A DNA stretch of 64,000 nucleotides from Thiotrichales bacterium. Lineage in GTDB: Bacteria > Pseudomonadota > Gammaproteobacteria > HK1. Positions 994-12,480 of this stretch are shown here, piece after piece. Each line of letters opens with the position of its first letter. Position 1 is the first letter of the stretch. Below the pieces are notes generated by a model. That model was not told the DNA's origin, did not search any database, and was given only the letters and a program-made list of their open reading frames with translations. The translations under genes were made by a program, and so were the position numbers. The stretch is taken from the NCBI GenBank assembly GCA_026709935.1, contig JAPOSC010000051.1, forward strand, positions 11,843 through 75,842. Reading direction: 5' to 3'.

Positions 994-2274
994 ATGAGGT
1001 TACTGTACACAGTCGTGCTGTGTCTTGTCGTCCCACTCATCGTGGCACGGCTCATGTCGCGGGGGTTCCGGGAACGCGCCTATCGGGATCGTATCAGCGA
1101 ACGCTTCGGACTAGGCACACACATTGGGTCCAGGCGAGGATGCCTATGGGTTCACGCGGCATCGGTTGGTGAGGTCCAGGCTGCAACGCCGATCGTCAGA
1201 GCACTTGAGTCCCGCTATCCCGGTGAGACGATCCTCGTCACAACGACGACTCCGACCGGCGCACAGCGGGCAGTGGAGACCTTCGGGGACTCGGTCGTCC
1301 ATCGCTACCTGCCTTTCGATTTACCCTGGACGATGGCAAGATATCTTGATCGGGTTAAGCCTCGGGTGGCGATCATCATGGAAACCGAGATCTGGCCCAA
1401 CTTGATGGCGCTTTGCCGCGCCCGCGAAGTGCCGGTCGTGTTGGCCAATGCCCGTCTTTCCGAGCGCTCCGCATCACGCTACCGCATGTTTCGCCGCCTT
1501 TACACACCGGTCTTCAGGGGAGTGGCGGCGGTCGCAGCACAAAGCGACAAGGATGCAATCCGACTGGCGTCCATAGGCGCGCCCCAGGAGTGCATCGACG
1601 TGACCGGAAACACGAAATTCGACGTCCCGATCCCGACCGGTCTGCGCGAGAACGCCGCTGCCCTTCGACGTACATGGGGAGCGACGCGGAGAGTCTGGAT
1701 AGCGGCGAGCACGCACCAGGGTGAGGAATCACAGATCCTCGCCGCTTTCGAGCAAGTGCACAACCGATTGCCTGAGAGCCTGTTGATCCTCGTACCCCGA
1801 CATCCTGAACGCTTCCCGGAGGCCGAGGCGCTCGCTCGCCGATGCGGGCTCATATCAGTTCTGCGATCTCAGCGAACCACCGATTGCACGAAAGCACAAG
1901 TCTACATCGGTGACACGATGGGCGAGCTACTCCTGCTTTACGCTGCTGCGGACGTAGCCTTCGTAGGTGGTTCGCTCGTCGAGATCGGCGGACACAACGT
2001 GCTTGAGCCGGCAGCCCTCGGAGTACCCGTATTTTTCGGGCCGCACCATTTCAACTTCGCCGAGATCAGCCGCCAGTTGGTCGAAGCGGGAGGCGCGGAG
2101 ATCATCATTGATACTGCACACCTTGCCCGATCCGTCATACGGCACTTGGAAGACGAAGACTTGCGCAGCAACGCAGGCGAGAAGGGGCGCGCTTTCGTGA
2201 AAAGTGGCCGTGGCGCGTGGGAGCGAGTGATCGCGATGATTACTCCTCACGTGGAAGGCCATGTCACTGATTGA
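994..2274 (+). CDS. waaA: 3-deoxy-D-manno-octulosonic acid transferase (Kdo transferase)
   Basis: WaaA transfers Kdo from CMP-Kdo to lipid IVA at the cytoplasmic face of the inner membrane. The 426-residue product has the usual family length. An N-terminal membrane anchor (about 1-20) is followed by the GT30 signature HAASVGE ending in the putative catalytic Glu60, ETEIWPN at 130-136, and the C-terminal GGHNVLEPAA near 332 that belongs to the nucleotide-sugar domain. The ATG at 994 has an AAGG about 11 bases upstream. It stands at the head of an LPS core locus with kdkA in the same region; kdsB and lpxK, which supply its substrates, lie at 57.7-59.5 kb. Whether it adds one or two Kdo cannot be read from sequence, though the nearby Kdo kinase favours one. 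Confidence 0.96.
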   Translation: MRLLYTVVLCLVVPLIVARLMSRGFRERAYRDRISERFGLGTHIGSRRGCLWVHAASVGEVQAATPIVRALESRYPGETILVTTTTPTGAQRAVETFGDSVVHRYLPFDLPWTMARYLDRVKPRVAIIMETEIWPNLMALCRAREVPVVLANARLSERSASRYRMFRRLYTPVFRGVAAVAAQSDKDAIRLASIGAPQECIDVTGNTKFDVPIPTGLRENAAALRRTWGATRRVWIAASTHQGEESQILAAFEQVHNRLPESLLILVPRHPERFPEAEALARRCGLISVLRSQRTTDCTKAQVYIGDTMGELLLLYAAADVAFVGGSLVEIGGHNVLEPAALGVPVFFGPHHFNFAEISRQLVEAGGAEIIIDTAHLARSVIRHLEDEDLRSNAGEKGRAFVKSGRGAWERVIAMITPHVEGHVTD

Positions 2275-5965: not shown

Positions 5966-6724
5966 TCACGCCCCACTACGGTAAGCGTCCAGCAGGGCAC
6001 GGAAATCTGACTCTTGGCAGCACAGACTGGGTTCCAGCCGACGCTGCTTATCCAGAGAGCGCCACAAGCGGAGGATACCACGTTCTCTCCAACCGCGCCC
6101 GCGACGAAAGCGCGCCCGATCGAAGTCGACGAGATGAAATTGCCCCCTGTCGTCCATCAGTACGTTACTCGCGTTGAGATCAGGATGCCAAACCTCATTG
6201 TCGTGGAATTGGCGCAAGGTCACGCCCAGCCGCCTCCACTCCGATTCGCTCAGTTTCCTCTGCAACAGAAGACGGTGCAGCGCAGTGCAGTTTGGAATTC
6301 GCAACGTCATGAGATCGGCTCGGTAGAAGCCGAGGCCGGATTGGATGATTCGCCACGCAGCCGGTGCGGGTACTGGTAATCCACGTGCGCGCATCCCGCA
6401 GAGCATTCTCCACTCGCATGCCGGGCGGCTGCGGACGCGCGACACCCCGAAGTAGCTGTCGTAGTTGAGGCGCGAAACCGCGCCTCCACGCCGATAATGA
6501 CGCAGAACGAAGACTTTATCCTGGTAAGCAAACGACCATCCCACGCCTCGTAGACCCTGCTCGGCGACAAGCAACAAACCCTCCGCCTCAAGATACTCAG
6601 GATCGAAGAGGGTTGCCGCAAAGCCGGGCAGAAGCCTCTTGTCATAGACGATGTATTGATGTCGCTCCTCAATTTCCGCTGGGAAGGGCTGATTTTCGTT
6701 CTGCCCAATTCTCCTGGATTTCAA
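5966..6724 (-). CDS. kdkA: 3-deoxy-D-manno-octulosonic acid kinase
   Basis: KdkA phosphorylates the single Kdo residue of Kdo-lipid A at O-4 using ATP. The kinase fold shows in VGWSFAYQDKVFVLRHYRRGG (split: VFVLRHYRRGG at 71-81), the catalytic HPDLNASN (H180, D182) and HLVDFDRARF with the metal-binding Asp near 200-202. The frame is open upstream to 7108, but that part overlaps another gene. I choose TTG 6724 because GAGGGA lies 6 bases before it; this gives 252 residues, close to the ~240 of known KdkA. The gene sits 22 bases after the DUF4143 ATPase gene and near waaA, its functional partner. Confidence 0.88.
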   Translation of the reverse strand: MKSRRIGQNENQPFPAEIEERHQYIVYDKRLLPGFAATLFDPEYLEAEGLLLVAEQGLRGVGWSFAYQDKVFVLRHYRRGGAVSRLNYDSYFGVSRVRSRPACEWRMLCGMRARGLPVPAPAAWRIIQSGLGFYRADLMTLRIPNCTALHRLLLQRKLSESEWRRLGVTLRQFHDNEVWHPDLNASNVLMDDRGQFHLVDFDRARFRRGRGWRERGILRLWRSLDKQRRLEPSLCCQESDFRALLDAYRSGA

Positions 6725-8135: not shown

Positions 8136-8597
8136 TCAGCGCATCAGGCGGGCAGATACCGGCGCAGCCGTGTCGATTCGCGGGAAATCGGCGTGGAGCT
8201 GATTGAACAGTACGTTCGATTCGTACGGCGACACCGCAGACGGGACCCACAGCACCGATGTTCGTCCGCGGTCGTACCACTGGTTGCCGAGCGCACGAGT
8301 CGATGCGAAGTCGTTCGCAGCCATTGATGCGCGGTCGAATTCGTCGATTCGCTCCTGCTCGATACCGGCGGGTATCGTCACTCTCACGCACACGAGTTCC
8401 GGTGGAAGCGCGCTTGTCTGCCAGTGCACCAGGTTCTCCAGCACGGCGAGGGCATAGGTCTCTGCCGCGTGGATGACCCGGCGTCCGGGCCCGATCCATC
8501 GACTGCCCCACCGGTGAGTTCCACCGCCGTCGAACGGTGGATAGCGCGCGTGAACGATTCGATAAGCATGTTGGGGGGCTTCAGGCCGGAAGACCAT
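8136..8597 (-). CDS. RES-domain toxin of a RES/Xre toxin-antitoxin pair
   Basis: A 153-residue RES protein. Characterised RES toxins degrade or modify NAD+ and stop growth. Family landmarks are present: YRIVHARYPPF near the N-terminus, GSRWIGPGRRVIHAAE (Arg and Glu), and YESNVLFN near the C-terminus supplying the Ser of the R-E-S set. A His stands where many members have Tyr in the V.YaaE motif. I start at ATG 8597, preceded by AAAGGGGG 5-6 bases upstream; the longer frame to 8630 lies inside the antitoxin gene. It overlaps the antitoxin stop by 17 bases, which suggests translational coupling. Confidence 0.86.
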   Translation of the reverse strand: MVFRPEAPQHAYRIVHARYPPFDGGGTHRWGSRWIGPGRRVIHAAETYALAVLENLVHWQTSALPPELVCVRVTIPAGIEQERIDEFDRASMAANDFASTRALGNQWYDRGRTSVLWVPSAVSPYESNVLFNQLHADFPRIDTAAPVSARLMR

Positions 8598-9042
8598 GCA
8601 ACCCCCTTTCGATGACCTCTTCGACCTCACGACCGCCTACCTCGGTCAGAGCGGTGTCGAATGGAGTCCGATCACCCAGCTCCGGATGAGGATGCATCAT
8701 GAAGCGTGCAGCGACTTCGGAGTCCTGGAACGCGAACAGAGCCAGAGCGTACAGCCGAGCGATGCGTTCCGTGGTCTCGCTGACCTGGAGGTTGAAGCGC
8801 TCGACCCGCTGATACGTTGCCCGTGGCACGATCTTGTTCCGCAGCCGCACACCGGAATCATCCGCGCGGTCTCCCGACACGATGGTCGTGATCAGCCGGT
8901 CCAGCGCCGGCTTGGGAATCCCCGCGCGAACCGCATCCTCAAGATCTCGCGTATCCCTGATGGGGCGGCCCAAAACACCGGAGCCACCCAGAATACCTGC
9001 GATCGCCGTGGCATCCACACCCATCCGAATCTCTCCGACCAC
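8581..9042 (-). CDS. Xre/MbcA/ParS-type antitoxin (DUF2384)
   Basis: The 153-residue protein has the layout of antitoxins paired with RES toxins: an N-terminal helical region (LEDAVRAGIPKPALDRLI), a central degenerate helix-turn-helix, and the C-terminal DUF2384 domain (TERIARLYALALFAFQD, then FMMHPHPELGDRTPFD and TALTEVGGREVEEVI). It should bind and block the RES protein encoded directly downstream and repress its own promoter, which would lie in 9043-9160. The toxin gene start overlaps its end. Pairing and order (antitoxin first) are standard for this TA class. Confidence 0.87.
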   Translation of the reverse strand: MVGEIRMGVDATAIAGILGGSGVLGRPIRDTRDLEDAVRAGIPKPALDRLITTIVSGDRADDSGVRLRNKIVPRATYQRVERFNLQVSETTERIARLYALALFAFQDSEVAARFMMHPHPELGDRTPFDTALTEVGGREVEEVIERGLHGLPA

Positions 9043-9186
9043 CCTGCTTCACATGAGACAATACTAGGCATTGAATGAGCACAGCACAAGGAGATATGAC
9101 GTGTACAGAGCGCAGAGACAGTCGGTAGACTGCCGGTCGCCGGTCGCCCTACTGTCGGCAGCCGGTTGCGCGGGGGGCGCGCCATC

Positions 9187-9999
9187 GTGCGGGAACTGAA
9201 CAGAATCACCCTTGACGCGCTCGTCACGGACGGAAAACCGTGCATTCGGGGCTTGCGGATCCTGGCCGTTGCCACCCTCCTGACCCTCGTCCTGCTTCTC
9301 TCCACCGCGGCTGACGCCCTCACCAACGCGCAGCGGGAACTCCCGCAGCGGTTCGAGGCGACCTTCTCGCTCAAGACAGCGGGCGCGACGTTCGCTCGCT
9401 CGCAGTGGTCTCTCGCGCCCGAGGACGGCGGCCGGTTCGTTTCCACATCCCGGACGGAGCCGACGGGAATGTTCTCCCTGATCCGCGACGATACCCGCGT
9501 CGAGCACAGCGAATGGGCCTACGCGGGGGACTGGCTGCAGCCGATCAGGTATCGCTACGAGCGCACCGGTCGCAAGACCCGCGTCATCGACATCACGTTC
9601 GACTGGGAGAAGAACACCGCGCGCCACGAGTCCGGGGGCACGACATGGCAACTGGAGGTGCCGCCCGGGACCATGGACAAATTCAGCTATATTCTCGCCC
9701 TGATGCGGGATCTCGAACTCGGCGCGCGCCGGATGGAGTACACCATCGCCGACGGCGGCCGTCACCTCAAGCGTTACGTGCTGACCGGCGTTGGCGAGGA
9801 GCACATCGAGACCGCGCTCGGAACGCTCGACACCGTCGTCATCCGGCGCGAGCGGGAGAACAGTACTCGCCGAACGACCTTCTGGTGCGCGAAATCGCTT
9901 GGCCACTTTCCGGTGAAGATCGTCCACACCGAACGCGACGACGCCACTCTCACCCTCCAGATCGAATCGCTCAGCGGCATCGAACGCCGCAATCTCTGA
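9187..9999 (+). CDS. DUF3108 exported protein with a DUF433-like N-terminal tag
   Basis: From about residue 50 this is a DUF3108 protein: FEATFSLKTAGATFARSQW, YAGDWLQPIRYRYER, a TMDKFSYILALMRDL stretch and TFWCAKSLGHFPVKI, a predicted periplasmic beta-rich protein of unknown role. A hydrophobic signal sequence (LAVATLLTLVLLL, about 26-40) precedes it. Before the signal, in frame, stands RITLDALVTDGKPCIRGL, which is the conserved opening of DUF433 antitoxins and has no place in DUF3108 proteins. GTG 9187 gives 271 residues; ATG is available only at 9166, and TTG 9253 would remove the DUF433 part but lacks a properly spaced ribosome site. This looks like a recombination junction. It converges on the U-type scaffold gene. 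Confidence 0.8.
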   Translation: MRELNRITLDALVTDGKPCIRGLRILAVATLLTLVLLLSTAADALTNAQRELPQRFEATFSLKTAGATFARSQWSLAPEDGGRFVSTSRTEPTGMFSLIRDDTRVEHSEWAYAGDWLQPIRYRYERTGRKTRVIDITFDWEKNTARHESGGTTWQLEVPPGTMDKFSYILALMRDLELGARRMEYTIADGGRHLKRYVLTGVGEEHIETALGTLDTVVIRRERENSTRRTTFWCAKSLGHFPVKIVHTERDDATLTLQIESLSGIERRNL

Positions 10000-10842: not shown

Positions 10843-12480
10843 TCAAGGCCCGCCTCCAATGTCACGCAACGCCTGCGGAGAATCCACATCGACGAGCACG
10901 GCGCGATCATCCATCGCCACCTCGCATACGTACTCCTCGTACTCGCCGATGAGGTGACGTGCGCCCACGTCCCCGCGCACCCCGGCGATCTCATCGAAGA
11001 AACGCCGGGCAAACAGGACCGGGTTGCCGCGCTTGCCCTCGAACACCGGGACACAGATCTCGCGCCCCTCGGCGGGATCGAATGCCGCCGCCAGCCGGTC
11101 GATGTGCGTCGAGGTGACGAGCGGCATGTCGCCGAGGCAGATCACCGCGGCCTCGGTGGACTCCGGCAACGCCGCGAGCCCGGCTCGAATCGAGCCGCTC
11201 AGGCCCTGCCGGTACTCGGGGTTGTGGACGAGGTGCGCACCGGTCCCCGCCAGCGACTCCTCCACCCGATCGGCTTCGTGCCCGGTGACGACCACCACTG
11301 ATCGCACGCTCGATCCCGCAAGCGCATCGACCACCGCGCGCACCATCGCGCGCCCGCCAAGCGGCGCCAGGAGCTTGTTGACCGACCCCATTCGGGTCGA
11401 GCGTCCGGCCGCGAGCACCAGCGCCGACACGTTCGGGGCCCGCGCCGGGGCCGACTCGTGCGACCCGCGCCGGGGCTGGGAACGCGCTGCGGTCTCCTTG
11501 AGCAGCCCACCGACTCCCATGGCCATGATGTCTCGCGGCCCCACCTCCAACCCGGCGGCGAGCCGTTCGAGAACCAGATCGAGACCGTTCAGCGCCGGTG
11601 AGCGCGCGCATCCGGGCAGGCCGAGCACCGGATATCCCCGGCAGCGGGCCAGCAGGAGCAAGTTGCCCGGATCGACGGGCATGCCGAGGTGAAGCACCTC
11701 GCCCCCTGCGGCCACGACGCCGGCGGGAACGATGTCGCGGCGGTCGACGATGGCCGAAGCCCCCACGATCAACACGATCCCGGCGCCGGAGTCGAACGCG
11801 CATCCAACGGCCTCCGCGACAGCGCCGGGGACATGTTCGCAGCGGGTGTCGCTCACGACCCATCCGCCGAGCGCCTCGATGCGTGCGCGCAGCACCCGGG
11901 ACGTCTTGTCGAGCACGGTCTCCTTCGTGGCCGGGAGCCGGGTCTGGATCAGGGCGGCCTTCATCGGCTCGAACGCCTGCACCCTGATTGGCCGGATTGG
12001 CCGAATCGGTGGCTCGGCGCCGAGGCAGGCGAGCGCGCGATCGAGCACCACGCGCGGCACCGCGAACGGAATCACCTTGATGGTCGCGAGCATCTCGCCC
12101 TCGCGCACCGCCCGCGGCGCCGACAGGGTGGCGACGGTCAGCGCCTCGTCCACCGCATTGAACCGGTCGACATCCGGAGCGCGAACAAGGAGCAGGCCAT
12201 CGATCGCCGCGAACACGTTGCAGCGCCCGGTGAACGGCGCCCCGACCCGCACCCCCTCCCCCGCGAGCGCCTGCGCCGCCGCCGCCGCGGCCTCATCCTC
12301 GGTCACGTCGCCGGGGTCGAGCCTCGCGCCCACCACCGCGTCGCACTTCTCGTGCTTCAGCGCCTCGACATCCGCAGCGCTCAGCACGCGCCCCTTCCTG
12401 AACGTCCGGCCCCCAACCCGCATCGAGTGCGCGAGCACGGTGCCCGCCGCGTCGACGACATTGACCCGGCCGAACCTCAC
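10843..12480 (-). CDS. Molybdopterin-binding (MoeA/CinA-like) domain fused to MobA-like nucleotidyltransferase
   Basis: A 545-residue two-domain protein. Residues about 1-340 include a molybdopterin-binding fold (GIVLIVGASAIVDRRDIVPA, then a GGEVLHLGMPVDPGNLLLL stretch) of the kind that prepares molybdenum cofactor. From about 350 to the end is an NTP transferase: VLAAGRSTRMGSVNKLL, VVVTGHEADRV, CLGDMPLV and GNPVLFARRFF, as in MocA/MobA enzymes that link CMP or GMP to the cofactor. The domain pair is known from genes near xanthine and CO dehydrogenase operons, where MCD cofactor is made. It overlaps the XdhC-like gene by 4 bases. A small 9-base tandem repeat around 11985-12010 encodes IRPIRPIR between the domains. 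Confidence 0.88.
   Translation of the reverse strand: MRFGRVNVVDAAGTVLAHSMRVGGRTFRKGRVLSAADVEALKHEKCDAVVGARLDPGDVTEDEAAAAAAQALAGEGVRVGAPFTGRCNVFAAIDGLLLVRAPDVDRFNAVDEALTVATLSAPRAVREGEMLATIKVIPFAVPRVVLDRALACLGAEPPIRPIRPIRVQAFEPMKAALIQTRLPATKETVLDKTSRVLRARIEALGGWVVSDTRCEHVPGAVAEAVGCAFDSGAGIVLIVGASAIVDRRDIVPAGVVAAGGEVLHLGMPVDPGNLLLLARCRGYPVLGLPGCARSPALNGLDLVLERLAAGLEVGPRDIMAMGVGGLLKETAARSQPRRGSHESAPARAPNVSALVLAAGRSTRMGSVNKLLAPLGGRAMVRAVVDALAGSSVRSVVVVTGHEADRVEESLAGTGAHLVHNPEYRQGLSGSIRAGLAALPESTEAAVICLGDMPLVTSTHIDRLAAAFDPAEGREICVPVFEGKRGNPVLFARRFFDEIAGVRGDVGARHLIGEYEEYVCEVAMDDRAVLVDVDSPQALRDIGGGP

Follow-up and report, generated by a model that had tools for sequence, protein, structure and literature searches.

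Based on reading-frame inspection, profile and reverse peptide searches and comparison with related genomes, we found that codons 9187-9258 of the analysed DNA (a stretch of 64,000 nucleotides, here called the window) are, by homology, the N-terminus of a DUF433 protein (COG2442, VapB10-type antitoxin), lying in frame with the signal peptide and the full domain of a DUF3108 protein. The explanation that we regard as likely is that an island replaced the upstream DNA, that the DUF3108 gene captured a DUF433 start in frame, and that the resulting leader has no antitoxin function and is clipped off. As the fusion is known from one genome only, there is no sign that it is maintained by selection. 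It is probably a chance 5'-end replacement, a one-off accident, rather than a fusion of antitoxin and envelope protein that is ancestral or functional.

The DUF433 leader and the DUF3108 protein

Inspection of the open reading frames showed that the fused frame opens after a stop ending at 9099 and closes at the stop at 9999. From GTG 9187 it is translated as the leader VRELNRITLDALVTDGKPCIRGLRI, the hydrophobic core LAVATLLTLVLLL, AADA and DUF3108; the stretch with which the frame continues after the leader is LAVATLLTLVLLLSTAADALTNAQRELPQRF, and the DUF3108 domain that follows is complete. The following parts were distinguished:

9167-9183, plus strand: Shine-Dalgarno-like stretch GCGGGGGGCG before GTG 9187 (anti-SD duplex -9.4 kcal/mol)
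9187-9258, plus strand: DUF433 N-terminal fragment VRELNRITLDALVTDGKPCIRGLR with the putatively captured GTG start (PF04255 positions 1-25; the peptide retrieves DUF433 genes)
9250-9262, plus strand: putative recombination junction between the DUF433 frame and the DUF3108 signal-peptide codons (alignment A1)
9253-9321, plus strand: DUF3108 signal-peptide region LRILAVATLLTLVLLLSTAADA, with TTG 9253 as alternative start (hydropathy, orthologous signal peptides, predicted helix at residues 20-45)
9322-9999, plus strand: mature DUF3108 domain to the stop codon, with a predicted LolA/YmcC/DUF1849-like, beta-barrel-like fold (PF11306, AlphaFold, Foldseek)

Searched alone, the 25-aa leader peptide aligned to positions 1-25 of the 56 in PF04255 (E=0.0012, 19.1 bits), and a six-frame search of the whole genome recovered it with E=0.012. 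Its scores of 15.7-19.1 bits lie below the gathering score of 23.6 and full-domain membership failed, as is expected when just 25 of the 56 Pfam positions are present. A reverse search served as the test for chance similarity: with tblastn, the 25-aa peptide matched 34 of 369 genomes of the class, and every non-self match with a readable frame (27 of 27) encoded DUF433 with its body, one of them shortened after about 35 positions. In a plasmid collection, 18 of the 20 matches listed carried a DUF433 annotation, the other two being named 'protein of unknown function' and 'hypothetical protein'. The Pfam and reverse peptide searches thus identify the region around the GKPCIRGLRI motif as homologous to the DUF433 N-terminus, and together with the frame they confirm the claim of the sequence-only reading that a DUF433 opening is joined in frame to an exported DUF3108 protein.

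DUF433 (COG2442) proteins are PIN-associated, DNA-binding antitoxins (PMC2701414), and VapB10 is an antitoxin of the DUF433 type (PMC3834315). The leader shares with them 24 residues homologous to their conserved start (RIT.D...GKPCIRGLRI), but differs in having neither the remainder of the domain (the match covers 25 of the 56 Pfam positions) nor a partner toxin. As 25 of 56 positions are not expected to fold into a DNA-binding domain, an antitoxin function of the leader is not expected. No PIN or DUF5615 toxin gene adjoins it, DUF3108 lying directly downstream, and a genome-wide search for the DUF5615 partner toxin gave sub-threshold matches only.

The DUF3108 part was assigned above the gathering score (PF11306, E=4.9e-23, 82.5 bits against a gathering score of 26; residues 67-258 of the 9166-9999 ORF). 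Hydropathy and alignment predicted a signal peptide with its hydrophobic core at residues 25-38 followed by AADA, in register with the signal peptides of the orthologs. In the AlphaFold model the leader was disordered (pLDDT about 52-55); the signal helix spanned residues 20-45, and the beta-rich domain after it was modelled with confidence (mean pLDDT 91.3). Foldseek gave DUF1849 (6ntr) as the nearest solved fold, followed by LolA, LprG, 3fzx and YmcC, with low TM-scores except for 6ntr, and a sequence search of PDB chains with DUF3108 gave no match. The model agrees with the published YmcC-fold of DUF3108 (PDB 3FZX; PMC4364669). The protein has in common with other DUF3108 envelope proteins the complete domain, the orthologous position beside moc and the same predicted beta-barrel-like fold; it differs from them in its N-terminal extension of about 24 residues and in the loss of the native start and of the intergenic region on the kdtA side.

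Start codon and fate of the leader

Three candidate starts are found in the fused frame, TTG 9166, GTG 9187 and TTG 9253; downstream of the last of these, a frame scan showed no further ATG, GTG or TTG codon as far as the DUF3108 core. The anti-SD pairing before GTG 9187 (-9.4 kcal/mol) was equalled by 1.5% of random sites in the window and by 1.4% of its GTG triplets, whereas TTG 9166 reached -2.0 kcal/mol and TTG 9253 only -1.1 kcal/mol, with 76% of random sites as strong or stronger; this comparison is a weak test in G+C-rich DNA, where the native start of a sister gene (L034) scores just 0.3 kcal/mol. If the DUF433 codons were a dead remnant in the 5'-leader and the protein started at TTG 9253 (MRILAVATLL...), its signal peptide would be of normal length, about that of the orthologs, and the unusual n-region of 24 residues would disappear. 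We consider this unlikely, as TTG is a weak start codon, this one lacks the SD-like pairing present at GTG 9187, and the 24 DUF433 codons are still free of stops. The strong SD-like match at GTG 9187, and the lack of one at TTG 9253, favour the captured DUF433 codon, from which translation probably proceeds, adding about 24 residues before the signal peptide. No sigma-70-like promoter site was found that would bear out the capture of a promoter, also proposed earlier.

With this start the extended precursor would have a 24-residue n-region of net positive charge ahead of the hydrophobic core. Presumably the leader is clipped off together with the signal peptide and the mature DUF3108 protein is unchanged.

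Rearrangement of the kdtA-DUF3108 locus

A DUF3108 gene was found in 35 of 55 relatives. The DUF433 motif was absent before DUF3108 in all of the approximately 33 loci checked by reading frame, four same-genus genomes included; these frames start right at a short signal peptide, for example MSAVHPLAALSLL in G004, MNPVISLGCALL in G003 and VNPVVRIPGLAALL in G002. In alignment A1 the start methionine of the orthologs lines up with residues 21-23 of the fusion, which puts the junction at about 9250-9262; as the residues GLRI suit both DUF433 and the native gene, it is placed to this interval and not to an exact base. The retained open frame and the well-preserved DUF433 motif would be in keeping with a family of DUF433-DUF3108 proteins whose leader is ancestral or under selection and serves in regulation or targeting. 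However, none of the DUF3108 relatives inspected, in the same genus or beyond, has the leader, and across the 369 genomes of the class no readable match to the leader stands in front of DUF3108. This reading is largely refuted by these comparisons, and we give it next to no probability.

In the sister genomes G003 and G004 the gene order is ilvC(+), kdtA(-), DUF3108(+), moc(-), and about 100-300 bp separate the divergent kdtA and DUF3108 genes; the gene we call ilvC was presumed to be so from reading the sequence and not from a family search. kdtA neighbours DUF3108 also in more distant family members. Comparison of gene order indicates that ilvC-kdtA-DUF3108-moc is the ancestral arrangement. 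The present genome is collinear with G004 on either side, at ilvC (93% identity) and in the genes that follow DUF3108 on the right (79% for moc), and the interval between ilvC and DUF3108 has become about 10 kb, containing a glycosyltransferase, an inverted kdtA, further glycosyltransferases, kdkA, an AAA/DUF4143 ATPase and a RES/Xre module. The genes and elements of the locus that bear on the fusion are:

994-2274, plus strand: kdtA (Kdo transferase), ancestrally adjacent to DUF3108 and divergent from it, here inverted at a distance of 7 kb (NF004388, E=8e-163; synteny)
5966-6700, minus strand: kdkA (Kdo kinase), a gene of the LPS island, located between kdtA and DUF3108 (NF002475, E=9.7e-63)
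8155-9090, minus strand: RES/Xre toxin-antitoxin module (RES 8136-8630, Xre 8581-9042), a separate element (PF08808, PF09722; NF049844 and NF049845 below cut-off)
9091-9186, plus strand: spacer between RES/Xre and the DUF433 fragment, presumed old upstream region of DUF433 (17 genomes of the order and 399 of the phylum gave no convincing match)
10843-12480, minus strand: moc (molybdopterin/nucleotidyltransferase-like), conserved right neighbour in the unrearranged flank (78-79% identity, same position in G003 and G004)

kdtA and kdkA here share one LPS island, and in the sister genomes kdtA lies alone between ilvC and DUF3108. A conserved 16-bp element, GTCTCAACGTAGCATT, occurs in the kdtA/DUF3108 gap of both G003 and G004. 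It had no match within three mismatches in the window, and the rest of the genome holds a single match to it, on a different contig and with two mismatches. By synteny, the right edge of the replacement is the DUF433/DUF3108 junction, in the first DUF3108 codons. The joining of a DUF433 start to DUF3108 by recombination, one of two possibilities raised earlier, is thus borne out by the relatives without the leader, by the synteny breakpoint at this place and by the loss of the native start and intergenic element. No direct or inverted repeats were found at the junction.

The left edge of the replaced region spans a scaffold gap just outside the window, and the island of about 10 kb is thus not fully resolved. 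The gap is a run of 10 N directly left of the window (G000:C63:11833-11842). Long poly-C/poly-G runs and a duplicated TGTACGACGGCAATCGGCAATTC stretch flank it, apparently a sequencing or assembly artefact that takes in positions 1-120 of the window, and a glycosyltransferase frame is broken there. The gap and the poly-C/G artefacts immediately left of the window, in a draft of 88 contigs, are what would speak for the junction being an assembly chimera. However, the window is free of N runs from 1 to 64000, both flanks carry the expected orthologs of the sister genomes (identities of 65-66% for kdtA, 68% for DUF3108, 78-79% for moc and 93% for ilvC), and a chance chimera would be in frame one third of the time and would rarely include a start codon. 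We therefore judge a chimera very improbable.

The RES/Xre module resembles ParT/ParS and is a complete neighbour on the opposite strand, upstream of the fusion and separate from it. The distance given previously holds, with 144 bases between GTG 9187 and the start of the minus-strand Xre gene at 9042. Over 936 bp (8155-9090) the module shares 87.5% DNA identity with a G003 copy (G003:C316) that stands in another context, among histidine-biosynthesis-like genes; it is sharp-ended, sits at an unrelated site in G003 and looks recently mobile. This homology stops about 96-97 bp before the DUF433 fragment. No DUF433 was visible beside the G003 copy, where the contig ends 176 bp beyond it, or next to a more distant copy in G007, and no relatives of the Xre protein were found in viral contigs. 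DUF433 as a part of the module was rejected, as the homology to G003 stops at 9090 and the G007 copy has no DUF433. The earlier suggestion of a region prone to rearrangement around the module is refined in turn: the block ends at 9090 without DUF433, and the break is the edge of the replacement of about 10 kb at the kdtA locus and not an event of the module. As far as the evidence goes, RES/Xre appears to be a bystander and not a shown cause of the break.

Source of the DUF433 fragment and meaning of the fusion

A remainder of the DUF433 gene, which the sequence-only reading had suggested might lie elsewhere in the genome, was found nowhere in it, including the far (kdtA) side of the rearrangement, where a simple inversion would leave it. 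Consequently, the event cannot be traced back to a simple inversion or exchange. For a donor of 9091-9300, DNA similarity searches of 17 genomes of the order and 399 of the phylum gave 30-40-base matches only, most of them outside the DUF433 codons, and the fragment shared at most 43 of 72 bases with DUF433 genes of relatives. The only intact DUF433 gene in the genome (L001, G000:C25:25631-25789) belongs to a different subgroup (GGTPVFAGTRVPV) and lies downstream of a DNA polymerase I-like gene. Ten DUF433 matches were found in each of the sister genomes G002 and G004.

We propose that the DNA between ilvC and DUF3108 was replaced by the LPS island of about 10 kb, with its inverted kdtA, glycosyltransferases, kdkA, AAA/DUF4143 and RES/Xre genes. 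One end of the replacement would have fallen within a stray antitoxin gene of the DUF433 (VapB10) type and the other at the first DUF3108 codons, so that the native ATG or GTG and the kdtA-DUF3108 intergenic element were lost and the first 22-24 or so DUF433 codons came to stand in frame with the signal peptide. The captured GTG 9187 would then initiate an envelope protein whose n-region is 24 residues longer, and the leader, having no antitoxin function, would be removed with the signal peptide, with only expression and targeting signals altered. There is a slim chance that the leader is active, the DUF433 promoter or 5' region giving an LPS-associated envelope protein antitoxin-type regulation, or the long n-region altering targeting; if so, toxin-antitoxin debris would have been turned into a regulatory part of an envelope gene.

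The replacement of the 5' end of a gene, or capture of a start site, by illegitimate recombination is a known process. As in other such cases a resident coding sequence has received, in frame, the truncated start of a foreign gene, whereas here the foreign part is joined to a signal peptide and is thus probably clipped off. The locus would be a readable example of how a resident gene outlives the loss of its own start when an island replaces its upstream neighbour, an unrelated fragment of a mobile antitoxin supplying an in-frame start codon and ribosome-binding site and signal peptidase being able to cut off the foreign residues. For annotators it is a caution that a recognisable N-terminal domain motif can be recombination debris.
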